Made by a program: the position numbers and the translations under genes. A DNA stretch of 64,000 nt from the NCBI RefSeq assembly GCF_003696265.1, contig NZ_RFFH01000002.1, positions 62,001-126,000 of the forward strand, in the 5' to 3' direction. This DNA is from Nocardia stercoris. GTDB lineage: Bacteria > Actinomycetota > Actinomycetes > Mycobacteriales > Mycobacteriaceae. Of this stretch, positions 33,128-63,574 are shown piece after piece. How positions within the stretch are numbered: the stretch's first letter is position 1; each line of letters starts with the position of its first letter. The notes below the pieces were generated by a model, which made no database searches, was not told where the DNA came from, and saw nothing but the letters and a program-made list of their open reading frames with translations.

Positions 33128-34669
33128 TCAGTCCTTCGCCAGGAACTCGTGCAGCTTCTCGACCGCCTGATCGATGCTGAAGCTGGCCGGTGCGTGCCGC
33201 GGCGGGAACTTCTCGAAGGTCTTCAGGAACGCCGTGGCCATGGCGGTCATATAGAAGATGAAGTAGTCGTGCTGCAGGAACCAGTTGTAGTACGTGTTCG
33301 AGGTGATGTCGGCGTACTCGTAGGGATCGGTGCGCAGGTTGAACAGCTTCGGCACCCGGAGCGTGGTGAACGGCTCCGCCCAGATCCGCAGCGTGCCCTG
33401 GCAGCGCTGCTCCATGAACACCGCTTTCCAGTTCTCGAAGCGCATGGCCATCAGGTCACCGTCGTCGGAGAAGTAGAAGAATCCGCGCCGCGGGCTCGAT
33501 TCCACCTCGCCGGTGAGATACGGCAGCAGGTTGTAACCGTCGATGTGCACCTTGTAGGTCTTGTCGCCGATGGTCTTTCCGGTCTTCAGTTCCTCCGGCG
33601 TGGTGGTGTCCCCGGCCGCGGCCAGCAGCGTGGGCAGCCAGTCGTGGTGCTGGATGATCTCGTTGGACACCGAACCGGCCTCGATGTGCCCGGGCCAGCG
33701 AATGAGCTCGGGGACGCGGAAGGCGCCCTCCCAGTTGGTGTCCTTCTCACTGCGGAACGGCGTGGTGCCGGCGTCCGGCCAACTGTTGCGGTGCGGGCCG
33801 TTGTCGGTCGAGTAGATGACGATGGTGTCGTCGGCGATGCCGAGTTCGTCGAGCACGTTCAGCACCGTGCCGACATTCTTGTCGTGCTCGATCATGGTGT
33901 CGTGGTATTCCGATTGCCACAGCCCGGCCTGCCCGCGCTTGGACTCGTCGATGTGCGTGTACAGGTGCATGTGGGTGAAGTTGCACCACACGAAGAAGGG
34001 CTGGTCGTCGGCGTGCTTGCGTTTGATGAAATCGACTGTGCGATCGGCGATGTCGTAGTCGATCCGCTTCATCCGCTCGATATTCAGCGGGCCGGTGTTC
34101 ACGATGGACTGTTTGCCCACCGGGCCGAATTTGGGGTCGTCCGGCTCATCCGAAACATGGTCGAGCGCTTTGCAATCCAGCACGCCACGGGGCTTGGCGA
34201 GGTCGTACAGCCGGGGGAACTGGTCGGCGTGCGGGTAGTCGAACTGCTCGGGTTCCTCTTCGGCGTTGAGGTGGTAGAGATTGCCGTAGAATTCGTCGAA
34301 GCCGTGCACGGTGGGCAGGTATTTGTTCAGGTCGCCGAAGTGGTTCTTGCCGAACTGACCGGTCGCGTACCCGTGCGGTTTGAGCAGTTCGGCGATGGTC
34401 GGATCGTCGGCCGACCAGCCGATATCGGCGCCGGGCGCGCCCACCTTGCTCATGCCGGTGCGGTACACGCTCTGCCCGCTGATGAACGCCGCCCGCCCCG
34501 CCGTGCAGCTCTGTTCACCGTAGGAGTCGGTGAACTTCATCCCCTCTTTGGCGAGCCGGTCGATATTCGGCGTCCGATAACCCATCAAGCCGTCGCTGTA
34601 GCAGCTGAGGTTCGTGATTCCGATGTCGTCACCCCAGATGACCAGGATGTTGGGCTTACCCTTCGGCAT
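33128..34669 (-). CDS. Arylsulfatase (C-x-A-x-R type)
   Basis: 513 aa from ATG 34669 with GGAGGT upstream. Alkaline-phosphatase-superfamily sulfatase: metal site NILVIWGDDIG, active-site sequence GEQSCTAGRAAFISGQ with Cys55 as the formylglycine precursor and Arg59, then GYATGQFGKNHFGD (Lys/His), FFVWCNFTHMHLYTH and the metal residues in VIYSTDNGPH. The motif is CTAGR, with Ala in place of the usual Pro (CxPxR), a variant found in several bacterial sulfatases. No signal peptide, so probably cytoplasmic. First gene of the operon with HAD and FGE. The substrate cannot be told. Confidence 0.93.
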   Translation of the reverse strand: MPKGKPNILVIWGDDIGITNLSCYSDGLMGYRTPNIDRLAKEGMKFTDSYGEQSCTAGRAAFISGQSVYRTGMSKVGAPGADIGWSADDPTIAELLKPHGYATGQFGKNHFGDLNKYLPTVHGFDEFYGNLYHLNAEEEPEQFDYPHADQFPRLYDLAKPRGVLDCKALDHVSDEPDDPKFGPVGKQSIVNTGPLNIERMKRIDYDIADRTVDFIKRKHADDQPFFVWCNFTHMHLYTHIDESKRGQAGLWQSEYHDTMIEHDKNVGTVLNVLDELGIADDTIVIYSTDNGPHRNSWPDAGTTPFRSEKDTNWEGAFRVPELIRWPGHIEAGSVSNEIIQHHDWLPTLLAAAGDTTTPEELKTGKTIGDKTYKVHIDGYNLLPYLTGEVESSPRRGFFYFSDDGDLMAMRFENWKAVFMEQRCQGTLRIWAEPFTTLRVPKLFNLRTDPYEYADITSNTYYNWFLQHDYFIFYMTAMATAFLKTFEKFPPRHAPASFSIDQAVEKLHEFLAKD

Positions 34670-41521: not shown

Positions 41522-41610
41522 GCTTCGCGAGCGTTACATCAGCACGCTGTGAGCAACCTCTAGCGCCGTCCGCGCCGTCCGCGGCAGGTGGGCAAGTTAC
41601 TCTCTTTGAC

Positions 41611-42357
41611 ATGCATCAACGCGGTACGACTTTTCGGGGGTTCCGCCGTTTTGCCGGAACTGCCCTCATTCTCACAACGTCCAGCATTTTATCCGCAACC
41701 GGAATTGCTGCGGCTGAACCGACCGGCCCGGACGTGTCGTCCTGGCAGCACATCAACGGCACCATGATCAACTGGAATGCCGTCCGGGCCGCCGGACACC
41801 AGTTCGCCATGCTCAAGGCCACCGAGGGACTGAACTACGTCAACCCGTACTTCGTCCCCGACAGCGTGTTGATGCGTGCCGCCGGCGTGGCCCGCGGCAC
41901 CTACCACTACGCCCACCCCGAACTGTCCCCCGAACTCCAGGGCGCGTTCTACGCCACGCTCGTGCTCGGCCAGAACGGCCCGCTCGACATGCCCCCGGTC
42001 CTGGACCTGGAGACCTCCGGCGGCCTCGCACCCGGGGCGCTGATCGACTGGACCCACCGCTACCTCAACACGGTCCAGGCGCTCACCGGCCGCACGCCGA
42101 TCATCTACACCTATCCGCGTTTCTGGCGGACCGCGATGGCCGACACCCACGACTTCGCCCAGTACCCGTTGTGGATCGCGGACTACAACGGCAACGACGG
42201 GCCCGACGTCCCCGGCGGCTGGAACACCTGGTCGTTCTGGCAGACCACCGACTCCGGCCACGTCCCGGGAATCAACGGCGGCACCGACATCAACGTCTAC
42301 AGCGGCGCCCAGGGACCGTTCGCCAACTACGCGAACATGGGCTTCGGCAGCGCGTAA
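41611..42357 (+). CDS. Secreted GH25 lysozyme (muramidase)
   Basis: 248 aa from ATG 41611. The N-terminal signal peptide (RRFAGTALILTTSSILSATGIAAAEP) is cleaved after about residue 35, and the catalytic domain follows directly: DVSSWQHI, MLKATEGLNYVNP, GTYHYAHP, the DLET motif in PPVLDLETSGG with catalytic acid, IYTYPRFWR, LWIADYNGND and WSFWQTTDSG. Mature size about 210 aa, the catalytic domain alone without cell-wall-binding repeats. Genes of phage lysins are larger and flanked by holins; nothing like that is nearby, so this is a chromosomal wall hydrolase. A strong hairpin follows. Confidence 0.93.
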   Translation: MHQRGTTFRGFRRFAGTALILTTSSILSATGIAAAEPTGPDVSSWQHINGTMINWNAVRAAGHQFAMLKATEGLNYVNPYFVPDSVLMRAAGVARGTYHYAHPELSPELQGAFYATLVLGQNGPLDMPPVLDLETSGGLAPGALIDWTHRYLNTVQALTGRTPIIYTYPRFWRTAMADTHDFAQYPLWIADYNGNDGPDVPGGWNTWSFWQTTDSGHVPGINGGTDINVYSGAQGPFANYANMGFGSA

Positions 42358-42415: not shown

Positions 42416-43216
42416 TCAGGCATCCAGCGGGAGGGCCAGGACGATGTCCTGTTCTGCGCCCGGCAGATAGTGCGCCTGCACGATCCGGCCGACCTGGACG
42501 TGGTCGATGCTGCCCTGCGGGACGAACTTCTGGACCCGGGCCGCGAAGGTCGAGCTGTCGGGGCGGGTGACGACCAACCCCAGATCGACTTTCGTGTATC
42601 CCTCCCGGATCTCGCCGGTCACCGACAGCGACTGCACCACCGCCCGGGCCGCGACACCGCTGGCGGCGATGTCGAGGTTGCGGCGGCTGGTGAGGCCGCG
42701 GCGGATCATCGACTCGTTCACGGCCTGCTGCATCGCATTTCGGTCGTTGGAGCGATCGATCTCGACCTTGTCGGTGCGGCCCGGCTGGTACCGCACCGGC
42801 AACACCACACCCGGTCGCAGCAGCGCCAGTTCGGTGAGCGGGACGATGATCTTGGTGTGCGAGTCGAAGCGCACCCCGTCGGCACCCTCCACCGACAGCT
42901 CCACGCGAACCTGCGGCTGATCGTTGACCGTCAACCCGGTCTGGCGGACCGAACGGACCGTCGCGATCCCCACCGGCATGTCCCGGAACGCGGCACTGTT
43001 GCGGCCGGTGAACGCGGACATGATGCCCTCACCACTGAACGCGAACACGATCGGCACGATCGTGAGCGCCACGATCGGCAGGCTCATCCGCCAGTTCACC
43101 CAGCCCAGCATGGCGCCGGTGAACTCGTCGGGCTGGTAGGTGATGCCGTAGTAGAGGTAGTAGCCGACCGCCAGGGCCGCGAAAACCAGTGTGCCGATGC
43201 GGATCTTGCTCGCCAT
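42416..43216 (-). CDS. Membrane-anchored protein with tandem beta domains, unknown function
   Basis: 266 aa from ATG 43216, two bases after the LpqH stop. Two N-terminal membrane helices (IRIGTLVFAALAVGYYLYYGI and MSLPIVALTIVPIVFAFSG), then a cytoplasmic or exported part with two similar segments: GIATVRSVRQTGLTVNDQPQVRVELSVEG ... IIVPLTELALLRPGVVLPVRYQPGRTDKVEID, and ARAVVQSLSVTGEIREGYTKVDLGLVVTRPD ... KFVPQGSIDHVQVGRIVQAHYLPGAEQDIVLA. This is a DUF3592-like repeated beta module. It is known in actinobacteria but without assigned role. Likely co-transcribed with LpqH. Confidence 0.75.
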   Translation of the reverse strand: MASKIRIGTLVFAALAVGYYLYYGITYQPDEFTGAMLGWVNWRMSLPIVALTIVPIVFAFSGEGIMSAFTGRNSAAFRDMPVGIATVRSVRQTGLTVNDQPQVRVELSVEGADGVRFDSHTKIIVPLTELALLRPGVVLPVRYQPGRTDKVEIDRSNDRNAMQQAVNESMIRRGLTSRRNLDIAASGVAARAVVQSLSVTGEIREGYTKVDLGLVVTRPDSSTFAARVQKFVPQGSIDHVQVGRIVQAHYLPGAEQDIVLALPLDA

Positions 43217-43218
43217 CA

Positions 43219-43770
43219 CTACCCGCCGACGATGTCGGTGCAGGCGAACGTGATGTCGAAGGCGTCGGTCTTGACCGCGGTCGGGTTGGTCAGGTCGGGA
43301 GTGCCGACACCCTCACCGGTCACGTGGTAGGTCTTGCCGGTGACCGAGACCTTGGCCGAACCACCGGGCGCGCCCTTGCCGTAGCCGACCGCGAGCGGAA
43401 CGCCGTTCGCGCCGCCCTTGGTGCCGGCGATGGCGACCGCGGTGACCGTGGTCCCGTCGACGGTCGCGCTGACGGCCAGGTTGCCGTAGGCGCTGTTGGC
43501 CGCGTCGTCGATGCTCAGCGCGATGGTGCCGCCGGTCTTCGCGCAGGTGGTCTCGAAGTTGCCGGTCAGGGCCTTGCCGTCGAGCGACACGCTGGACGTG
43601 CCCGACGGGGCCGCACCGCCCGGCGCGGCCGGGGCCGCCGAGGAGCCCGCCGCTGCGGACGTCGGGGCCGCGCTCGGGGTGCTGCCCGAGTTACAGGCCG
43701 TGCTGGCCAGAGCCAGGGTGGCGGCGGCGACGGCGGCGACGGTGACCCGGCGGATGGTGGTGGCATTCAT
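43219..43770 (-). CDS. LpqH-family (19-kDa antigen-like) lipoprotein
   Basis: 183 aa from ATG 43770 with GAGGAA upstream. Signal peptide RRVTVAAVAAATLALASTAC with lipobox and Cys lipidation site, then an Ala/Pro/Ser-rich linker ([20 protein letters not shown]) and a beta-rich domain matching mycobacterial LpqH: VSLDGKALTGNFETTCAKTGGTIALSIDD ... VTGKTYHVTGEGVGTPDLTNP ... FDITFACTDIVGG, with the pair of conserved Cys residues that form a disulfide. Surface lipoprotein, abundant in mycobacteria; its physiological function is unclear. Followed within two bases by a membrane-protein gene. Confidence 0.88.
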   Translation of the reverse strand: MNATTIRRVTVAAVAAATLALASTACNSGSTPSAAPTSAAAGSSAAPAAPGGAAPSGTSSVSLDGKALTGNFETTCAKTGGTIALSIDDAANSAYGNLAVSATVDGTTVTAVAIAGTKGGANGVPLAVGYGKGAPGGSAKVSVTGKTYHVTGEGVGTPDLTNPTAVKTDAFDITFACTDIVGG

Positions 43771-43919
43771 GGTGTTTCCTCTTCCGTGTTGGCCCCCCGC
43801 TGGAGCCGATGACAGAACAGTACGAACGGATTTCCGCCTACCGATCCCAGAAATCGTCCGGATCCGACGCCGGCGGATTCGGGCTACCGGGACGCCCGAC
43901 CGGCGGCTAACCTGGGCGA

Positions 43920-45248
43920 ATGCAGAGACCGAGAGCCATGGTGCTGGACGAGGTCTGGCGCGGGCTCGACGGTGTGGAGGTCCTCAGCGGACCACAGGGC
44001 GGACCGCTGCGCCGAACCGTGAAACTGATCCTGGACCCCCTCGTCATCCGGCCGGTACAGCATCCGCTGTGCGCCGGGCCGATCGTGTCCGCCGAGGGCG
44101 CCAGTGAACTCGCGAGCCGGCTCAACGATGCCGCACCGGTGCTGCGGGCGACCGCCGACTGGTTCCGGCTGCTCAAGGGACTGCGCCGGTCGCTCCGGAT
44201 CACCGAAGGGCATCCGCAGGACCTGTACTTCCAGCGGTGTTTCGAACTGGCCACCACGCTGGGGCGGCCCGATCCCGAAGGGAGCCGGCCGGTAGCCGAG
44301 GACACGCTGCGCGAGGTGCACGAGGGTACCGCCGGGCGCACCACGCGGGCGCTGCGTGATCACCTCACCGATCCGGAGCAGGCCGCAGAGCTGGAGTCCC
44401 TGCTCGCGCTGGCCTGGAGCCGCCGGCCCGCGAACGCCGTTTCCGGGGCCGACTTCAGCGGTCGGCTGCTGGGGCTGGTGAACGCCTGCGCCACCGCGCG
44501 ATCCACCGGCGGCGGGGCCGCCGAGCAACGACGGTTCGACGACCTGGTGGGCGACCGGGCAGGCACACACAGCGGGATTCGGCTCTGGGGGACCGAGATT
44601 GCCCCTACTGCGAGGCATTTAGGGCTGACTGTGCATCCGGTGCCGCATCAGCCGGAGCTGGGCGCCTCGGCTTCGACTGCGACACTGGGGCTTCCGTTCG
44701 ACCGCAGCATCTATGAGCGGGTGTTCACCGTGCTGCAGAGCGAATCGGATCGCAGTGCGCTGCCGACCGTGGCGGAGCTGGTGGAGGCGGAGATCGCCCG
44801 CAGTTCGGCGCCGTGGGCGTTGCTCACCGAGACTCTGCGCGTCGCAGCGGCCGCGGGAACCACACTGGCGCAGGGATTCCGGCCGCTCGGAGTGGATCAC
44901 GGCGCGGGGTCCGACGACGAATCCGTTGCCCAGCAGGTGATCAACGGCCGCTGGCGGCGGGAGGCGTACGTGCTGCAGGCGCGGCGGCTCGCGATCCGCG
45001 ACACCGACGAGCCGACCGGTCCGCTGGCGGTCATCGCCGCGGAGCTGCGCGAACCCTGGCGGCCGTACCTGCGTCGCCTGTGGGTGCGGCTGCACGGCCG
45101 CGACGCCCGCGAACTCGATCTGTACGACGCCACCGACCTGTGGGATCTGCTGGACGGCGTGGCCCGGTCGGTGATCCTCGATCATCGCGGCCGGGTGAAA
45201 CAGGCACTGAGCGTGAGCATTCCGCCGGACCGCGGGGAGGCCGCATGA
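43920..45248 (+). CDS. Unrecognised protein, first gene of a CHAT-protease cassette
   Basis: 442 aa, with no signal, membrane segment or recognised motif. Mostly helical: LASRLNDAAPVLRATADWFRLLKGLRRSLRI near residues 60-95, TLREVHEGTAGRTTRALRDHLTDPEQAAELESLLALAWSRRP, SIYERVFTVLQSESDRSALPTVAELVEAEIARSS and a C-terminal RPYLRRLWVRLHGRDARELDLYDATDLWDLLDG. The first segment (RTVKLILDPLVIRPVQ) is beta-like. The stop codon overlaps the next start (ATGA), and that gene's stop is one base before the TPR-CHAT gene, so it is coupled to a caspase-like protease. It might be a substrate, inhibitor, sensor or adaptor. Function unknown. Confidence 0.8.
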   Translation: MQRPRAMVLDEVWRGLDGVEVLSGPQGGPLRRTVKLILDPLVIRPVQHPLCAGPIVSAEGASELASRLNDAAPVLRATADWFRLLKGLRRSLRITEGHPQDLYFQRCFELATTLGRPDPEGSRPVAEDTLREVHEGTAGRTTRALRDHLTDPEQAAELESLLALAWSRRPANAVSGADFSGRLLGLVNACATARSTGGGAAEQRRFDDLVGDRAGTHSGIRLWGTEIAPTARHLGLTVHPVPHQPELGASASTATLGLPFDRSIYERVFTVLQSESDRSALPTVAELVEAEIARSSAPWALLTETLRVAAAAGTTLAQGFRPLGVDHGAGSDDESVAQQVINGRWRREAYVLQARRLAIRDTDEPTGPLAVIAAELREPWRPYLRRLWVRLHGRDARELDLYDATDLWDLLDGVARSVILDHRGRVKQALSVSIPPDRGEAA

Positions 45249-46285
45249 GCGGGGAGATCGTGGTGGCCGGGGCGCCCGGCGGCGCGGTGCTGGTCACGCC
45301 GATCGACGCGGCGGTCACGGTGGACGGACCGGCTCCGGTCGACACGCTGGTACTCGGGGTACCCGGGGGGCATCTGAGCTGGAGTCTGCTGTCCGGACAA
45401 CGGATTCCGACCGCAACGCTCGACGATGCCGACGAGGCGCAGGACTGGCTGTGGGCGGTGTACGGGGAGGCTGCGGCGCTGGCGGTCGCCACGTTCGCCG
45501 GGCCGGTGGGGACGGGCCGTCCCGATCGCCGAGCAGCCGAGCCCGGGCAGGCAGTTGCCGTCGTCGCGGCGGCCGTGCTGCCGCAGACGGTGGTATCGGC
45601 GCGGCGACTGGCTTACGCGCACTGGGCATCCCGGTGGTGGCCGGCCTCGACCGTGGACGGCATCACGCCGCTGGACGAGGGGCTGCTCGCGCTGGACATC
45701 GCCGCGTTGACGGTGGAGTGCGATCTCCTTGCCGACGGCGCCGACGCCGAGTTACCCACGACTGCTGTGGAATCACCCCGGCAGTCCGACTATGCGCTCG
45801 CGGCCGGCCCGCAATCGACCAGTGCCACTTCGGTTCTCGCACGCGGAACCTCCGGGTGGGACTGGCGCAATTGCCCGCCGGGTCTGATCGACGCCTCGGA
45901 ACGTGCCGTGACCTGGGAAGTTCACCGCGAAGCCGGGCGCATTCTGGCGTCGGTGCGCGCGGTCGCGGCTCCGCAACTGCGCGGGCCGGTCCCGGCACAC
46001 CTGCGCCCGTATGCCCACCTTCGCACCGCGGCCGGCACCCACACCGCGGCGCTCACTCTGACCGGTGACGACTGGATCGGGTCGGTGGCGATCCCCGGCA
46101 TGGAAAGCATCACTGCCGTGGACATCTCAGTTCCTGGCGTCGGTTACGGCAGCGACTCACCCACCGAAGCCGCTACCCGCGAACAGATCCGCCGCTTCGC
46201 CCGTAAGCGACTGCACGCTCCCGACCGCACCGACCTCGAGCCGCTGGCTGCGGAGACGGCGGCCGCCGAAGAGCCCGACTTCTGA
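45245..46285 (+). CDS. Unrecognised protein, second gene of the CHAT-protease cassette
   Basis: 346 aa from ATG 45245, overlapping the preceding stop by four bases. The N-terminal third is beta-rich (EIVVAGAPGGAVLVTPIDAAVTVDGPAPVDTLVLGVPGG), followed by helices with a Trp-rich segment (ARRLAYAHWASRWWPASTVDGITPLDEGLLALDIAALTVECDLL) and a second beta-rich half (AVTWEVHREAGRILASVRAVAAPQLRGPVPAHLRPYAHL; GTHTAALTLTGDDWIGSVAIPG). No signal, membrane segment or enzymatic motif. Acidic C-terminus. I do not recognise the family. It has no gene of similar type elsewhere in the window. Role as partner of the downstream protease is inferred from position only. Confidence 0.8.
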   Translation: MSGEIVVAGAPGGAVLVTPIDAAVTVDGPAPVDTLVLGVPGGHLSWSLLSGQRIPTATLDDADEAQDWLWAVYGEAAALAVATFAGPVGTGRPDRRAAEPGQAVAVVAAAVLPQTVVSARRLAYAHWASRWWPASTVDGITPLDEGLLALDIAALTVECDLLADGADAELPTTAVESPRQSDYALAAGPQSTSATSVLARGTSGWDWRNCPPGLIDASERAVTWEVHREAGRILASVRAVAAPQLRGPVPAHLRPYAHLRTAAGTHTAALTLTGDDWIGSVAIPGMESITAVDISVPGVGYGSDSPTEAATREQIRRFARKRLHAPDRTDLEPLAAETAAAEEPDF

Positions 46286-46286
46286 T

Positions 46287-49190
46287 ATGTCCCCACCGGA
46301 TCCGAGCCCCGGTGCCTCCGGCAGCGGAGGCACATATTCCACAGTGCCGCAGAGTGATACGCGTGCAGCCGGTCGGGAGCGCCTACTCGCCGGAGCGGCC
46401 GCGTACCAGGCCGGTGACACCGCTGCGGCGCTGGCGATCTTCACCGCGTTGGCAACTGAGGCCGAGGGCCGGATTCGGGTGTCTGCCATGGTCAATGCGG
46501 GGAGCATGGCGGATCGGATGGGGGATCACGACCGTGCGGTGCGGTGGATGCGGGAAGCGCTCGCGGAGATGGGGGACGAGGACGCGGACCTGAGGGCCTC
46601 GACACTGGTGAATTATTCGCAGGCACTGCAACATCTGGGTGATCTGGACGGAGCCCAGGTGGCGCTGACCGAGTGTCGGGAGCTGCTGGCGGAGCTCGAA
46701 CCCGGCTCGCTGTGGGTCGCCTGCCTGCTGTCGTCCACGGCGGTGGCGATTGCGCGAGAGCAGTGGGCGGCGGCGATCGAACTGGCACAGGAGACGCTGG
46801 ATACGACCGCCCGGCTCGCCCCGGAGCTGGCGGGGCATCCGCTGATGAATCTGGCGGCAGCCTATTTCGAGACCGGACGGACCGACCTGGGGATCGATTT
46901 CGCGGAGCAGGCGCTGACGGCGTTCGAGGTAGCCGAAGATGCCACGGGGGTGGCCGAGGCTCGGCAGAACCTGGCGCTCATGCACATTCGCCGGAATCGG
47001 CCGGACGACGCAGAGCCGCTGCTGGTCGCGGCGCAGGACTACTTCGAACGGGCCGGGTTGGCACCGCGGGCCGGGATCGGGCTCAAGGCACTGGGGTTCC
47101 TGGCCGAGTGCCGCGGAGACCAGGCCGGGGCCTATGCGCTGTACCGCCGCAGCACCGAGCAGTTCGATTCCGCAGCAGCGCATCTGGAGGCAGCGGAGGC
47201 GCGGGTTCGACTCGCCACCGCAGCCTTCGCGCTGGGCCGTCCCGACGAGGCGGAACAGCTGCTGGACAACGCGTTCCGGGTATACGCCGCGCACGACCTG
47301 GGCCACCGCTGCGCTCAGATCGACTATTGGCATGCGGCACTGCTGGAATCGGCGCTCGACTACGAGCGACCCGATCCCGCTGTGGTGGGTCGTGCGACCG
47401 GATTGGCCGTGGCCTCCGCCTTGGCCATCGACGCGGTCCGGTTCAGTTTCCCCAGCGCTGCCCAGCGGCTGCAATGGGAGCAGAACCTGGCCCGACCGGC
47501 ACAGCGGCTGGCCTTTCGGTTCGCCACCCTCTCCGGCGCCGCGCATCTGCTGGCCGAGCTGGTCGAAACCCAGTGTGCGGGTTCGACAGTGCAGCCGGAG
47601 CGACCCGAACACGCACCACCGCGACGGTTGCCGCTGCAACTGCCTGAACCGTCGACTCCCGATCCACCGCCGGGGACCCTGGCGCTCGGAGTCACGCTCG
47701 CCGCCGCCGTCGCGGTGACCGGGCTGCGAGTCTCGTTGCCCCCGCTGCTGCGGGTCGGTCCACCGGACCGCATCGCTCTCGCCGACCACTTGACGGCCGC
47801 CGAGCGACGGTACCGGCTGGAGCTTCGCAATCGGAGGGTACCCGCGTTGCACACCTCGGCCGAGATCGCCGAGTCGGCCGTCGAGTTCGGCCCTGCCGCC
47901 GGGGAAGCTGCCGACGGGCAGGAGGATCCGCCGACACTGCTCCTCCGCATGGCCGATGCCGGTGAACTGTACCTGTATTGGCAGTGGGGCCGTGCGGTGT
48001 CCGAGCCGGGGATCGCGGTTGTCCCCGAGGATCAGGTGGTCGCGCTGGTGGAGCGGGTGGCCGCCGCACTGCCGAATCCGACGCGACCTGACGGTCTCGA
48101 ATCCGCGCTCACTGCCAGTGAATTGGTAGACCCGGTAGCCGAATTAGACCTGGCTCAGCAGTTGTCGCGGACGTTTCTGCCCTATCGGTTGGCCGAGCAA
48201 CTGTATCGGTACTACACCGCTGGGGTGCGGCCGCGGATTCGGATCCAGCCGTCGCCGCGGGTCGCCCAGATCCCCTGGGAGCTCATGGCTCCCGACCCCG
48301 CAGTGCGGTTGCTCGATCTGGCCGATATCAGTCAGCTCGCGCCGGCGGGGTTGATCCACACACCGGGGCGCACGCAGCGGTCGTGGGGTGAGTCGGCCGA
48401 TCTGCCTCGGGTGGCGGTTCTGGATCCGCGGGTACCGGGATTCCGTGCCGACTCGGCGCTCGGATCGGTGCTCGGACGGATGGCCGCGGAATCGCCGCTG
48501 CTGCAACGGGTCGAGAAGTACCGCCAGCGAGATCTGTTGCGGCCGAAGGTGGACAGTGCGGTGGAGGCGTTTCGGCGCTCCGACGTTGATCGCGAATGGC
48601 TCAGTGACACTTTGCGTTCCGGGGCCGCCCGGCTGCTCTACGTGGGGCACGTGACCGCTGCGGCGCCCGAGACCGGGCTCAGTGAACTGGCTCGCCTGCA
48701 CCTGGCGTGCCGGGACGACACCGACGGGTGGGCCGAGCCCGAACGGACGCATCGCCCGCTGTCCGCTCGCGACCTCATCCTCGGCGGGCCGGGCGGTGCG
48801 CCGGGCGAGGGACCCCGGCACTGGCCGATTCCCAGCCGGGTCGCCCTGATCGCCTGTGAGAGCGGCGGTGACCTGCGGTTCGGTGAACCTCTCGGCCTGG
48901 TGGCGGCGATGCTGCACGGTGGGGCCGAACTCGTGACGGCCGGTCGGTGGGCATTGCCCACCGACCTGGCCTTTCACCGGTTCGCCGGGGCCGAATCGCA
49001 CACACATCCGCTGCAGGAGGCGATCTGCGCGATCGACGCCGCGCACGAAGCCGCCGATCCGGTTCGCGCACTGAATGATTGGCAGCGCGCCCGGCTCGCG
49101 GCCTGGCGCGCCGGTGGCTCGGTCGTCGACTCGCCGCTGCTGTGGGCGGCGTTCACGACCGTGTGTTCCCCGGCGCCCCAGGTCAGTTGA
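46287..49190 (+). CDS. TPR-CHAT protein, caspase-like (clan CD) protease
   Basis: 967 aa from ATG 46287, one base after the previous stop. Residues about 25-420 are a TPR superhelix ([144 protein letters not shown]). A Pro-rich linker follows ([20 protein letters not shown]). The C-terminal CHAT domain (about 540-967) has [18 protein letters not shown], the catalytic His788 in LLYVGHVTA and Cys857 in [41 protein letters not shown] proteases are related to separase and caspases, and some act in antiphage systems. No signal peptide. Ends by overlapping the convergent YeiH gene by eight bases. Confidence 0.9.
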
Positions 49191-50433
49191 CCACGCCCCA
49201 GTGCAGGACGCGGGACGCGAACAGCACCAGCCCGAGCGACACCGCCGCCACCACGACCAGCCCGACCACCGCGACCGCCAGCGGGCGCCACCCGGTCTTG
49301 CCGAGCTCCCGGAAGTCGGTGTTCAGGCCGACGCCCGCGAAGGTGAGCAGGAACGCCCAGCGCGACGCGTTGCCCAGACTCGTCAACTGCCCCTTGTTCA
49401 GCCAGTGCAGGGTGGCCAGCGCCGACACCGCCAGGAAGCCGAGCACGAACTTGGGGAACTTCGCCCAGACGAATTCTGCCTTGGCGCGCACCCCGGGCGC
49501 GATCGCGTCGGCCTCGCCGCGCCCCGCCCAGTAGAGCGCGAAACCCAGGACCACGAAACCGATCAGGGCGTTGCGGGTCGACTTGACCAGCACGGCGAGC
49601 TTGCCCGCCGCATCCGAATAGAGGTATCCGGTCGCGGTCGTCTCCGCGGTGTTGTCCACCGCCAGACCCGCCCAGAGCCCGAATTCGTGGTCGCTCAAGC
49701 CGATTCCGTGGCCGATCGCGGGCAGCGTGAACAGGGCGACCGCGCCGAGTGCGAGGATCGCGGCGATCGCGTAACTCACATCCGAGTTCTTCGCCCGGAT
49801 CGCGCCGCGCGCCGCGGCGATGGCGGACACGCCACAGATCGACGTGCCGATCGCCAGCAGGGAGCCGAGTTTCCCGGACAGGCCCAGCAATCGGGACACG
49901 GTGAGGATGACTGTCCCGGCCACCGTCATGTCGACGAGGATCAGCACGAAACTGGTGCCACCGAGTTTCGCGACGTCACCGAGCACGAACCGGGAGCCCA
50001 GCAGGACGATTCCGGCCTTCAGCCAGAACTCGTAGCTGCCGACGCCCGGCTTGAAGATTCGGTGCACACCAACGGTATTCACAATGATGATGCCGAATAC
50101 GATCGCCCACAGCACGTATTCGATATCGGGGAACGAATGGTGATGGGCTTTCGCCCACCGGTTGAGCCAGATTTCGGTGTACTTGCCCGCCAGGCCGATC
50201 ACGATCAGGAGCGCGATCCCGGGTAGATATCCGAGCAACCGACGCAGTTCCGTCACCGGTGGCGCGATCGCCTCGGCCGACGTGAATTCCGTTTCAGGCG
50301 TGACTGTTTCGGCGGAAGCGCCCTGCGTTTCGATCGGGACGGACGTCTCGGCGGGTACGCCCGCCGGCTCGGACGGATTCGCGGGCACGGATGTTCCACT
50401 CACAGTGGTGTTCTCGGCAGACACGGCACTCAC
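49183..50433 (-). CDS. YeiH family putative sulfate exporter
   Basis: 416 aa from GTG 50433, which overlaps the stop of the small upstream gene (GTGA). Extra N-terminal segment of about 60 residues rich in Glu, Pro and Thr, then about ten membrane helices: [78 protein letters not shown] (the conserved GTSICGxSAIxA motif), [43 protein letters not shown], and [31 protein letters not shown]. It belongs to the YeiH/UPF0324 family, usually annotated as sulfate exporter from limited evidence. Confidence 0.9.
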
Positions 50434-50567
50434 CACGAGATCTTCGACACGAGGCCCGTGATCACGAGAATCACGATCACCGCCGCGAAAAGTACCGCCC
50501 ACCAGTCCAACCCGATCCGTGCGAGCACGGACCGATCCGGGGTGGGCGCGGGGCCCGATTCACTCAT
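50430..50567 (-). CDS. Small single-pass membrane protein coupled to YeiH
   Basis: 45 aa from ATG 50567 with AGGAG five bases upstream: [20 protein letters not shown] followed by [20 protein letters not shown] and SKISW. One membrane helix near residues 22-40. Its stop TGA overlaps the GTG start of the YeiH transporter, so YeiH translation depends on this frame. Function unknown; an accessory or assembly subunit of the transporter is likely. Confidence 0.75.
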
Positions 50568-50700: not shown

Positions 50701-51495
50701 TCAGGCGATGCCGGTGACCGGCTCCGGGTTGTAGTCGTCCCGCCATCCGATCGCCTCGACCACCGCGCTCAGGTCGTAGTCCGGACCGCCGACCCCGACG
50801 GTGAACAGGGTGACGCCCGCGGCCGCCAGCGCACCGGCGGCCTCGGCACCAGGCCACTGCACGGACCGTTCGATCAGCGCCGGGTCGCGGCCGACGACCG
50901 CGCAGTGCTCGGCGAGGATCTTCGACTTGCGCTGCAGCACTTCGAGATCCGCGAAGGTGTGCCAGATGTCGGCGTAATCGGCCACCAGGCGCAGGGTTTT
51001 GCGTTCGCCGCCACCGCCGATCAGGATCGGCATCGGTCCCACCGGGGGCGGGTTCAGCCGCGCCAATCGGTCGGTGATCCGGGCCAGCGAGTCCTTGAAC
51101 TTGTCGATCCGCGTTCCGGCGGTACCGAATTCGTAGCCGTACTCGTCGTAGTCGCGTTCGAACCAGCCGGCCCCGAGGCCCAGGATCAGCCGCCCGCCGG
51201 AGATGTGGTCGACGGTGCGGGCCATATCGGCCAGCAGGTCGGGGTTACGGTAGCCGCCGCCGGTCACCAGCGCGCCCAGCCGCACCCGCTCGGTCTGTTC
51301 GGCGATCGCGCCCAACATGGTCCAGCACTCGAAATGTGCGCCGTCGGGGTCGCCGTAGAGCGGATAGAAGTGGTCCCAGTTGAAGACCACGTCCACCCCG
51401 ACGTCCTCGGCGCGCAGGACGGCGTCGCGGATCAGGCCGTACTTCGGGGCCTGCTGGGGCTGGATCTGCACACCGATGCGGATCGGGCGGCTCAT
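50701..51495 (-). CDS. LLM-class F420-dependent oxidoreductase
   Basis: 264 aa from ATG 51495 (MSRPIRIGVQIQPQQAPKYGLIRDAVLRAEDVG). Luciferase-like TIM barrel: DVVFNWDHFYPLYGDPDGAHFECWTMLGAIAEQTERVRLGALVTGGGYRNPDLLADMARTVDHISGGRLILGLGAGWFERDYDEYGY, then PPPVGPMPILIGGGGERKTLRLVADYADIWH. The GAGWxxxDYxxYGYxF and GGxGExxTLRLVAxYAD motifs mark the F420-dependent LLM subfamily common in Mycobacteriales. Likely a cytoplasmic reductase or oxidase of a small molecule; substrate unknown. Confidence 0.9.
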   Translation of the reverse strand: MSRPIRIGVQIQPQQAPKYGLIRDAVLRAEDVGVDVVFNWDHFYPLYGDPDGAHFECWTMLGAIAEQTERVRLGALVTGGGYRNPDLLADMARTVDHISGGRLILGLGAGWFERDYDEYGYEFGTAGTRIDKFKDSLARITDRLARLNPPPVGPMPILIGGGGERKTLRLVADYADIWHTFADLEVLQRKSKILAEHCAVVGRDPALIERSVQWPGAEAAGALAAAGVTLFTVGVGGPDYDLSAVVEAIGWRDDYNPEPVTGIA

Positions 51496-51726
51496 GATCG
51501 CTCCTCGTCGACGGCACAAGCGGAACAGGGCAGAACGGACCGTTCCACACGCTACCCGGCCCACCGCCCGATCGGTCAAGGCCCGCAGCCGGTAGCCGAG
51601 CGGAACCGCTCAGGCCGCCGACGGGCGACGAACTACGGCTAGGATTCGAGGGCTGCGGTTCGCCCCGGCTCCCCTCTATTCGGATCGTCCGGCACGTTCC
51701 TGCCGGTGAAGGGACGTTCATTCGTC

Positions 51727-61222: not shown

Positions 61223-63574
61223 GTGAGTTCCGGCGGTAGACCGGGCGGTTCGGGAAGGCCGAGCCTGCGCGACCTCCTGCACCGTTGGAACGAACTCGTG
61301 GGCACCGCGGCGAATCGCCGGCGCATGCGGCAGGGCCTGCAGATGCGGCCCGTGCGCCACCGGGCTCCCGCACCCGCCGCCCCGGCCGACACGGACACCG
61401 GAACCCGAGCCGCCGTAGCGGACTGGACGCGGTCCGGCCGCCGTGCCGGGCGCTTGGTCCTCGCACTGTTCCTGATCTTCCTGGTGGTGCCGGCGCTGTT
61501 GTGCGCGCTGGCCTATTGGAGTGCCCAGGTCCCCCGCCCCAGCGCGGTGCAGACCAATCAGATCGCCACGGTCACCGCCGCCGACGGTACCACTGTGCTG
61601 GCGAAAATCATTCCGCCCGAAGGCAATCGGACCCTGGTCAAGCTGGACGACGTCCCGATGCCGGTGCGCGACGCGGTGCTGGCCGCCGAGGACCGCAACT
61701 TCTACTCCAACCCGGGCTTCTCCACTCAGGCGTTCCTGCGCGCGGCCCGCGACAATCTGCTCGGGCGCCAGGACGCCGGTGGTGGTTCCACGATCACCCA
61801 GCAGTACGTGAAGAACGCCTTCCTCGACTCCGAGCGCAGCCTGACCCGCAAGATGCGGGAACTGATCATCTCCGCGAAGATGGCGCGGCAGTGGAGCAAG
61901 GACGACATCCTCGCCGCGTACCTGAACACGATCTACTACGGCCGTGGGGCCTACGGGATTTCGGCCGCCGCGCGCGCCTATTTCGACAAGCACGTGCCGG
62001 ATCTGACCCTCGCGGAGGGCGCGGTGCTGGCCTCGGTGATTCGCACCCCGTCCCTGCTGGACCCGGAGACCCACCACGATCAACTGGTGGCCCGCTGGAA
62101 CTACGTGCTCGACGGCATGGTCACCATGGGCAAGCTGACACCGGATCAGCGTGCCGCACAACAGTTCCCGAACATCATCGGCCCATCGGCGCTCGACGAC
62201 GCGACCCACACCCCGAACGGGCTGATCCGCACCCGGGTGCTCGACGAGATGCGGGCCGCCGGCATCACCGACGACGAAATCAACACCGGCGCACTGCGAA
62301 TCACCACCACGATCGACCGCCGCGCCCAGCAGGCCGCCGTGGACGCCGTGCACAGCACCCTCGACAACCAACCGCCCGACCTGCGCACCGCAGTGGTGTC
62401 GATCGACCCCAGAACCGGTGCGGTGCGGGCCTATTACGGCGGTGACGACGGCGTCGGCTACGACTTCGCGCAGGCGCCGTTGCAGACCGGGTCCTCGTTC
62501 AAGACGTTCGCGGTGCTGGCCGCCGTCCAACAGAACGTGCCGCTGTCCTATCAGCTCGACAGCGGTCCGATCACGGTGAACGGCGTGAGCGTCAGCAACG
62601 TGGGCAACGAGACCTGCGGAACCTGTTCGCTGGCAGAGGCTTTCAAGCGTTCGCTCAACACCAGCTTCTACCGGCTGACCGAGACCGTGGGCCCGCAGGC
62701 GGTCGCGGACGCCGCCCACGCCGCCGGGATCCCGGAACGGATCCCCGGCGTCGCGGGCACCTCGCTGACGGATTCGGACACCGGTACGCCGTCCCCGTCG
62801 ATCGCGCTGGGCGTGTACTCGGTCCGGCCGATCGACATGGCCTCGGCCTACGCGACGCTGGCCGCCTCCGGCATGTACCACTCGCCGTACTTCGTGCAGA
62901 AGGTGGTGACCGGTGACGGCCGGGTACTGCTGGACCACGGAAACCCGGCCGGCACCCTGCGGGTGACCGCGGCGGCCGCCGACACCACCACACACGCGAT
63001 GCTGCCGATCGCCGGCTACTCCAACGGCCACGACCTGGCCGGCCGGCCCTCGGCCGCCAAGACCGGCACCACCCAGCTCGGGGACACCGGCGCCGACAAG
63101 GACGCCTGGATGATCGGTTTCACGCCGTCGCTGTCCACCGCGGTGTGGATCGGAACCGAACAGCCGCAAGCGATCACGACCCGCTGGGGTGGCCCGATCT
63201 ACGGTTCCGGGCTGCCCGCCGACATCTGGAAGCGGACCATGGACGGCGCCCTGGCCGACAGCCCGGTCGAACAGTTCGCGCAGCCAACCGACCCGCCGCT
63301 GTTGCTCGACCCGGGCCCGCCCCCGCCGGGCGAGGCCCCGGCCCCACCGGCGCCCGCACCGGCCTGGTCCGGTCCGGACCCGTCCGCGATCGGGCCCGCC
63401 GCCCCGGCACCCGCTCCCGCGCCGCAACAGGCCCCGCTGCGCGGCGGCCCGTTCGACACACCGGACCCGGGTCCCCCGCCGGAGGACCCGGCGCCGGGCC
63501 TGTTGGTACCGCCGCCGAACACGCCCCGGGAGGTGCAGATCCTGCCCGGACTGACCATTCAGCTGCCGGGCTGA
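61223..63574 (+). CDS. ponA1: Bifunctional class A penicillin-binding protein (PonA1)
   Basis: 783 aa from GTG 61223. Cytoplasmic N-terminus of about 80 residues, one membrane helix (LVLALFLIFLVVPALLCALAYW), then the GT51 transglycosylase with AAEDRNFYSNPGFSTQAFLRAARDNL, GGGSTITQQYVKNAF, and RKMRELIISAKMARQWSKDDILAAYLNTIYYGRGAYGISAAA. The transpeptidase follows with GSSFKTF (catalytic Ser), SLNTSFYRL and AAKTGTTQ, all intact. A Cys pair (NETCGTCSLAEA) and a long Pro-rich tail match M. tuberculosis PonA1 (Rv0050). It polymerises and crosslinks peptidoglycan at the pole. In mycobacteria it is followed by a membrane protein (Rv0051), and another gene starts here too. Confidence 0.95.
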   Translation: MSSGGRPGGSGRPSLRDLLHRWNELVGTAANRRRMRQGLQMRPVRHRAPAPAAPADTDTGTRAAVADWTRSGRRAGRLVLALFLIFLVVPALLCALAYWSAQVPRPSAVQTNQIATVTAADGTTVLAKIIPPEGNRTLVKLDDVPMPVRDAVLAAEDRNFYSNPGFSTQAFLRAARDNLLGRQDAGGGSTITQQYVKNAFLDSERSLTRKMRELIISAKMARQWSKDDILAAYLNTIYYGRGAYGISAAARAYFDKHVPDLTLAEGAVLASVIRTPSLLDPETHHDQLVARWNYVLDGMVTMGKLTPDQRAAQQFPNIIGPSALDDATHTPNGLIRTRVLDEMRAAGITDDEINTGALRITTTIDRRAQQAAVDAVHSTLDNQPPDLRTAVVSIDPRTGAVRAYYGGDDGVGYDFAQAPLQTGSSFKTFAVLAAVQQNVPLSYQLDSGPITVNGVSVSNVGNETCGTCSLAEAFKRSLNTSFYRLTETVGPQAVADAAHAAGIPERIPGVAGTSLTDSDTGTPSPSIALGVYSVRPIDMASAYATLAASGMYHSPYFVQKVVTGDGRVLLDHGNPAGTLRVTAAAADTTTHAMLPIAGYSNGHDLAGRPSAAKTGTTQLGDTGADKDAWMIGFTPSLSTAVWIGTEQPQAITTRWGGPIYGSGLPADIWKRTMDGALADSPVEQFAQPTDPPLLLDPGPPPPGEAPAPPAPAPAWSGPDPSAIGPAAPAPAPAPQQAPLRGGPFDTPDPGPPPEDPAPGLLVPPPNTPREVQILPGLTIQLPG

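Follow-up and report, generated by a model that had tools for sequence, protein, structure and literature searches.

The predicted TPR-CHAT caspase-like protease of Nocardia stercoris is encoded in a cassette with two partner proteins, here called P1 and P2, and in Nocardia this cassette belongs to a larger set of genes that also includes a lipoprotein and a membrane protein. The cassette lies in a stretch of 64,000 nucleotides (positions 62,001 to 126,000 of contig NZ_RFFH01000002.1), hereafter the window, whose own numbering is used throughout. Six genes, encoding the lipoprotein, the membrane protein, P1, P2, the TPR part and the CHAT part, are linked and largely lost together in Nocardia. 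A first-pass annotation had described a three-gene cassette; P1, P2 and TPR-CHAT are indeed a real unit, but the unit extends past 43920 to the lipoprotein and the membrane protein, and the likely biology therefore shifts from a soluble death module to one tied to the envelope. We give about an even chance to the proposal that the cassette makes up the cytoplasmic half of a conserved module coupling the cell envelope to a caspase-like protease, by a mechanism that we infer; the biology of such a module would most likely be envelope-linked regulated proteolysis. The genes and residues concerned are the following.

43920 to 45248, plus strand: gene 1 (P1), 442 amino acids, all-helical, of no known family
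45245 to 46285, plus strand: gene 2 (P2), 346 amino acids, acidic, its start lying inside an ATGA overlap with gene 1
46287 to 49190, plus strand: gene 3, 967 amino acids, TPR repeats fused to a CHAT peptidase
Gene 3 product, TPR part: matches at approximately residues 66 to 333 (PF13424, E 6.1e-19), with a conserved region to approximately residue 520
Gene 3 product, CHAT part: PF12770 match at approximately residues 621 to 958
48648 to 48650, plus strand: codon of the predicted catalytic His788, in the motif YVGH
48855 to 48857, plus strand: codon of the predicted catalytic Cys857, in the motif IACESGG
43219 to 43770, minus strand: lipoprotein of the mycobacterial 19-kDa antigen family (PF05481, E 2.3e-21, 76.7 bits against a cut-off of 23)
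42416 to 43219, minus strand: membrane protein, 267 amino acids, with N-terminal hydrophobic segments followed by a beta-type domain

The tight coupling of the three cassette genes, proposed from the start, is borne out by the ATGA overlap and by the single base between the stop of gene 2 and the ATG at 46287 with which gene 3 begins. The product of gene 3 is predicted to be a TPR-CHAT caspase-like protease, as had been proposed together with the catalytic pair. Its C-terminal piece matches PF12770 above the Pfam cut-off (E 2.6e-8, 34.1 bits against 24). The same family is not among the Pfam matches of the whole gene 3 protein (E up to 5), and a whole-genome search returns gene 3 as the only PF12770 match in the genome, with 31.9 bits. 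Among the CHAT relatives, 19 of 20 rows match PF12770 at E up to 1, and His788 and Cys857 are invariant in all 20 rows of their alignment. Both residues are furthermore kept in 27 rows of a 28-row Nocardia alignment, the last row being truncated or gapped there; two loci (L047 and L049) are left out of this alignment, as their match ran through a stop. A sequence profile search of the PDB with the CHAT part gives only TamI and separase, at E 0.54 to 0.87. Hydropathy reaches a window value of 1.77 at residue 464 of gene 3.

The fusion of TPR and CHAT, likewise reported in the first-pass annotation, is true of the window as sequenced but does not hold for the genus. In all 29 other Nocardia loci showing both parts they are separate genes, with the two matches lying in different frames in 27 loci and divided by a stop at position 507 in the other two. 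The fusion in the window is an exception among Nocardia loci, for which four genes are the usual state, while a fusion is seen again in other lineages (L107, L108, L110, L111 and L123).

The linkage of the lipoprotein and the membrane protein to the cassette is most evident within Nocardia, where 30 loci were fetched, giving 31 with the window. Genes 1 and 2 are found in all 30 and relatives of gene 3 in 29, the exception ending at a contig edge. The lipoprotein gene is divergent from gene 1, is present as a single copy in the window genome, and overlaps with its end the start of the membrane protein gene, whose product has no family above the cut-off in family scans. In the loci as fetched, the lipoprotein is present in 28 of 30; it adjoins gene 1 in 27 of these and lies 3 kb off in the remaining one (L037). 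A lipobox pattern is found in 27 of the 31 loci; the N-terminus in the window, which reads ALASTAC and is atypical at one position, is missed by the pattern.

The pattern of absence is shared by these genes. Gene 2 is missing from eight of 35 other Nocardia genomes (G009, G011, G012, G017, G018, G021, G028 and G035), CHAT is missing from exactly those eight, and PF05481 is missing from the same eight and single-copy in the other 27. On an rpoB tree the presence pattern needs at least five changes, four of which are forced by well-supported branches; random labels average approximately seven changes, and of 500 shuffles, 25 to 30 reach a count as low as the observed one. Of the 36 Nocardia genomes, counting that of the window, 28 are on the tree, 20 with the module and 8 without. 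Eight carriers were left out, two having no match and six a partial or ambiguous one, and five genomes with partial matches were kept. A second rpoB-like gene is present in several Nocardia genomes, so the rows of the tree may include a paralogue. From the identical absences together with the changes on the tree it follows that joint loss, or joint gain, of the module genes happened several times.

Between the lipoprotein and gene 1 lies a short region with two candidate control elements.

43837 to 43849, plus strand: 13-bp element CCTACCGATCCCA (same element also given as CTACCGATCCCA), between lipoprotein and gene 1
43908 to 43913, plus strand: TAACCT, a -10-like box, 6 bases before the ATG of gene 1, with leaderless-type spacing

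Counting the window, 25 of the 31 Nocardia loci carry the 13-bp element exactly and 28 carry it with at most one mismatch. Nowhere else in the 540 kb of these loci (1.08 Mb counting both strands) does the exact form recur, and only 0.09 matches with at most one mismatch are expected in the window. Allowing one mismatch, the element also stands upstream of the lipoprotein in all nine loci with the other gene order described below (eight g23 loci and L110), and upstream of the gene for a propeller protein, which occupies the lipoprotein's place elsewhere, in five of seven loci. A TANNNT motif 5 to 8 bases before gene 1 occurs in 31 of 31 Nocardia loci, a frequency given without a chance control.

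Across the Mycobacteriales genomes searched, P1 accompanies CHAT wherever its strong type occurs. Of 298 Mycobacteriales genomes, 49 carry P1, and 61 have a CHAT match at E 0.001, which splits into 48 scoring at least 235 bits and 13 scoring 37 bits or less. P1 is present in all 48 genomes with the strong CHAT type; 20 of these supplied rows of the CHAT profile, leaving 28 that are independent. Only one genome has P1 without a matching CHAT, in the form of gene 1 fragments (G252:C1:676031-676545), which are perhaps the remains of a decaying module. Profiles built from Nocardia only match in 38 of the 298 Mycobacteriales genomes for gene 2 and in 12 of 396 genomes of the phylum for gene 1, one of these weakly. 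Two weak distant matches, L043 for gene 2 and L112 for gene 1, were discarded, with no module at either locus. All 19 loci fetched for strong matches outside Nocardia contain the four cytoplasmic genes in one locus, with many overlapping gene ends and some gaps of 0.4 to 1.7 kb. P1 is furthermore encoded on five Streptomyces plasmids of 1.2 to 1.6 Mb, and the two of these loci that were read both have all four genes. The proposal that P1 and P2 would be conserved beside CHAT in other genomes is therefore upheld, and as they are kept across several families, their association with CHAT goes beyond chance and they are real CHAT partners. As to conserved gene order, a single order does run across Nocardia (P1-P2-TPR-CHAT, shared by the f14 and f15 loci), but the g23 and f3 loci have TPR-CHAT-P1-P2.

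A second, diverged CHAT gene (282 to 430 bits) is present in three Nocardia genomes (G003, G032 and G007). The corresponding TPR-CHAT paralogue loci (L157 8983-11890, L158 5919-10323 and L159 3547-10380) give no match to P1 or P2. In L158 and L159, two other proteins precede CHAT, which are 35 to 36% identical between the two loci and, in L158, have no Pfam family; aligned with P1 and P2 they show no detectable relation. This may be the same design in a parallel form.

The envelope proteins also recur outside Nocardia, in more varied form. In the nine loci with the TPR-CHAT-P1-P2 order, the lipoprotein is always found upstream of TPR and in the same direction. In seven f14/f15 loci (L101 to L106 and L109), another protein, a membrane-anchored propeller, occupies the lipoprotein's place; the two of these that were scanned have an N-terminal hydrophobic segment and match the PA2928 family (NF041516, E 2.5e-85 and 3.3e-91). 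A homologue of the membrane protein follows this propeller gene in all seven loci, that of L103 being 37% identical over 225 residues. The g23 relative of the membrane protein lies on the opposite strand, flanked by CHAT and P1, and a short form follows CHAT in L107, L108 and L111, the one of L107 being near DUF3592 but below the cut-off. Both Streptomyces loci have a membrane protein beside the module, on different sides and of uncertain kinship to that of the window; in L123, the one scanned with Pfam, it matches DUF3592 above the cut-off.

The first-pass annotation had found no recognisable family or membrane segment in the first two products, and wider searches agree with this. Neither gene 1 nor gene 2 matches a Pfam, NCBIfam or PADLOC family, and scans of the same kind (Pfam/NCBIfam) with their relatives give only scattered matches, at E 0.0097 or worse. 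Hydropathy windows of at least 1.6 are absent from both products in the window, and three relatives barely reach 1.6. Sequence profile searches of the PDB return a best E of 1.5 for gene 1 and nothing for gene 2. With the partners conserved beside CHAT, the catalytic residues well aligned and neither partner matching a housekeeping family, none of the refuting conditions set in the first-pass annotation applies.

AlphaFold models of both proteins are confident, with P1 being helical (pLDDT 88.5) and P2 alpha/beta plus immunoglobulin-like (pLDDT 87.6).

P2 layout: N-terminal alpha/beta part; central Ig/FN3-like sandwich at approximately residues 196 to 300 (weak match); C-terminal tail

Foldseek against the PDB gives nothing at E 0.001 for either protein, and for gene 2 the viral library likewise gives nothing at this threshold. 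The best fold match of gene 2 (Z 5.5, root-mean-square deviation 2.5, 76 residues aligned) is to Ig-like receptor domains over residues 213 to 300 of the model, and that of gene 1 has Z 4.8, a deviation of 6.4 and 93 residues aligned. For these whole-chain models no solved fold stands out, and weak fold-search values of this kind are not proof of new folds. No relation of P1 and P2 to each other could be detected.

P1 is 59 to 67% identical to its Nocardia relatives and 35 to 46% identical to those of other genera. It contains 12 invariant Arg and 4 invariant Trp (31 rows) and has a median isoelectric point (pI) of 7.9, ranging from 5.8 to 10.6 in the same rows, whereas P2 is acidic throughout (pI 4.1 to 5.0 in 33 rows). 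To judge from these sequences, the charge pattern of an acidic P2 and an Arg-rich P1 would suit a putative P1-P2 complex. The final residues of P2 are Asp-Phe in 30 of 30 Nocardia rows, Asp-Tyr or Thr-Tyr in eight g23 rows, and Glu-Phe in L107, L108 and L111. Some TPR domains bind ligands with a C-terminal acidic tail of this kind. In gene 1 of L030, L035 and L038, one loop carries long Ala/Gly/Leu-rich inserts that are absent from most other rows.

Several described systems combine CHAT or other caspase-like proteases with neighbouring partners. CATRA (caspase and TPR repeat-associated conflict systems), reportedly defined by Burroughs and Aravind in 2020, was the first candidate considered, and resembles the module in that actinobacterial CHAT/TPR proteins stand beside a protein of a dedicated family. 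It was rejected, as a partner with the BN6_48550 domain (NCBIfam NF038357), which we take to be the marker of CATRA, was not found. NCBIfam gives no NF038357 match in genes 1 and 2, in their aligned relatives or in the window genome, and profile-profile comparison of P1 and P2 with BN6_48550 (hhalign) gives probabilities of only 0.1 and 1.6. Regarding the variable effector domain of CATRA, nothing better than E 0.0097 appears in the relatives of P1 and P2 that were scanned. In the CATRA locus that was read (L119), a match to the Csx29 TPR-CHAT model adjoins a protein combining BN6_48550 with a glycosyltransferase, whereas the module of the window has a lipoprotein and a membrane protein attached. 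Bacterial gasdermins are paired with CHAT or other caspase-like proteases, and such pairs share with the module a protease with a neighbouring candidate substrate; however, the models show P1 as entirely helical and P2 as alpha/beta with an Ig-like part, and neither of the two has a family match. Foldseek and VIA-align against the PDB list no gasdermin among the matches for P1 and P2, although the gasdermin fold was not compared directly. One study names CATRA as caspase-dependent (PMC8195603).

Another such system is Craspase (type III-E Cas7-11 with Csx29, Csx30, Csx31 and CASP-sigma), in which TPR and CHAT likewise form the protease and the partners are encoded beside it. According to the Csx29 study, Csx29 cleaves Csx30, relief of sigma factor inhibition is proposed as the consequence, and the authors liken this scheme to DegS and RseA in envelope stress (PMC10028731). 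By analogy, the cleavage of Csx30 by Csx29 would be the best precedent for a CHAT protease that cuts its partner here. The window partners differ from those of Craspase in matching no NCBIfam family. The Csx29 model NF041237 has no NCBIfam match in the whole gene 3 protein at E up to 5, and no CRISPR-like array of direct repeats of at least 22 bases spaced up to 120 bases is present at 34000 to 60000. As far as can be read from sequence, the module is neither CATRA nor Craspase. The PF05481 lipoprotein is by its Pfam match a member of the 19-kDa lipoprotein antigen family, which we take to be LpqH. Among the matches listed in open-licence literature, this lipoprotein is treated mainly as an antigen and the term "CHAT domain" does not stand beside it; furthermore, no publication recognised as describing this module is among those matches.

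The retention of the lipoprotein and the membrane protein with the protease suggests that an envelope signal is turned into protein cutting inside the cell. The lipoprotein, being extracytoplasmic, together with the membrane protein would sense the state of the envelope, be it damage, contact or the arrival of a phage. The Arg-rich helical P1 and the acidic P2 would form a complex held by the TPR part, for which the conserved acidic-aromatic tail at the C-terminus of P2 may serve as the contact. An envelope signal passing via the membrane protein would activate CHAT, which would then cut P1 or P2 at a flexible loop and free an active fragment or an inhibited partner. Candidate outcomes are a response in gene expression or at the envelope (of the kind seen with anti-sigma cleavage), homeostasis, phage defence or cell death. 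More tentatively, and with a chance we place somewhat under even, the module may stand for a new class of trans-envelope caspase-like signalling systems in Mycobacteriales and some Streptomyces, in which an outside signal would pass from a 19-kDa-family lipoprotein (or a propeller of the PA2928 type) and a membrane protein to a TPR-CHAT protease in the cytosol that has P1 and P2 as dedicated partners.

A number of observations weigh against the coupling of the envelope to the protease as set out above. Within Nocardia, the membrane protein is missing not only from the eight genomes without the module but also from G003, which keeps it, and in L029, L036 and L037 the lipoprotein lies approximately 3 to 12 kb from gene 1, with no 13-bp element upstream of gene 1. 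Among g23 genomes, the three module carriers counted (G128, G149 and G086) hold 3 to 7 members of the lipoprotein family, and G163, where no module gene was found, holds six; a strict link between lipoprotein and module is therefore shown for Nocardia only. To judge from its classification and from these multiple copies, g23 is probably Mycobacterium. The g23 relative of the membrane protein is shorter, and is clear in five of eight loci, weak in two and not found in one. No lipoprotein is found in the fetched f14/f15 and Streptomyces loci, and L103 has a second one-mismatch copy of the 13-bp element elsewhere. As for the partners, P1 of the window is not basic (pI 6.3), and the tail of P2 is missing in seven propeller-type rows (the L110 row is cut short), so that docking by the tail is not universal. 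The likeliest cleavage loops in P1 and P2 vary in sequence and length, and an attempt to predict the cleavage loop from conservation failed because the candidate loops are hypervariable.

The lipoprotein and the membrane protein could alternatively be merely co-regulated neighbours of a soluble, CATRA-like protease made up of P1, P2, TPR and CHAT, with P1 and P2 as its two subunits or substrates. Both Streptomyces loci, which have the four genes and no lipoprotein or membrane protein match of the window's families, agree with this, as does L110, which lacks the membrane protein. However, lipoprotein, membrane protein, gene 2 and CHAT are all missing from the same eight Nocardia genomes, and the lipoprotein remains near the other genes whichever of the two gene orders is present. 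Even in Streptomyces a membrane protein of uncertain kinship, the DUF3592 match of L123 included, stands beside the module, and we regard this alternative as rather improbable. That CHAT serves in the cell as a structural or binding domain instead of a protease is far less probable still. Its protease activity is so far predicted from sequence and the Pfam match of 34.1 bits is modest, but the His and Cys are invariant in all rows with filled columns, across relatives that are only 38 to 49% identical.

An antiphage or abortive-infection system, in which the adsorption of a phage, or a component that it injects, would be sensed at the envelope, freeing CHAT and leading P1 or P2 to kill the cell, is in our view unlikely, although it fits the repeated loss of the module in Nocardia and the presence of gene 1 on the five large Streptomyces plasmids, from which it follows that the module sometimes moves. 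A TPR-CHAT protease moreover belongs to type III-E CRISPR systems, as accounts of these systems describe (PMC9729208, PMC10028731), but the latter account itself reports no defence against three tested phages (PMC10028731). P1 and P2 have no recognisable variable effector domain, a PADLOC scan of the three cassette genes, and of those only, gave no match, and gene 1 has no match in any of 50,697 phage records. The chromosomal setting also argues against it: a gene of the downstream flank (50701 to 51579) is common to 15 of the 30 Nocardia loci and a non-module upstream gene to 10 of 30, and placement in a defence island is unsupported because of these shared flanks. In at least half of the Nocardia loci the module occupies one and the same chromosomal position, while the others, some of which end at contig edges, are uninformative in this respect. 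The defence or programmed-death role that the first-pass annotation had drawn from CHAT biology thus finds no support. Outside the module, the neighbours in the window are a PF03601 protein (conserved hypothetical 698) at 49183 to 50502 on the minus strand and a GH25-family protein at 41605 to 42354 on the plus strand.

To our knowledge, the bacterial CHAT systems described so far detect their signals inside the cell, through RNA or NTPase switches. If the coupling of envelope and protease proposed here is true, the module would place the sensor of a bacterial caspase-like pathway outside the cell, and part of the 19-kDa lipoprotein antigen family would gain a physiological role as the sensor of such a pathway, which offers a testable role for a lipoprotein family known mainly as antigen. 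The module also brings with it two protein families, P1 and P2, without recognised solved relatives, and the related Nocardia species with and without the whole gene set constitute a natural experiment.

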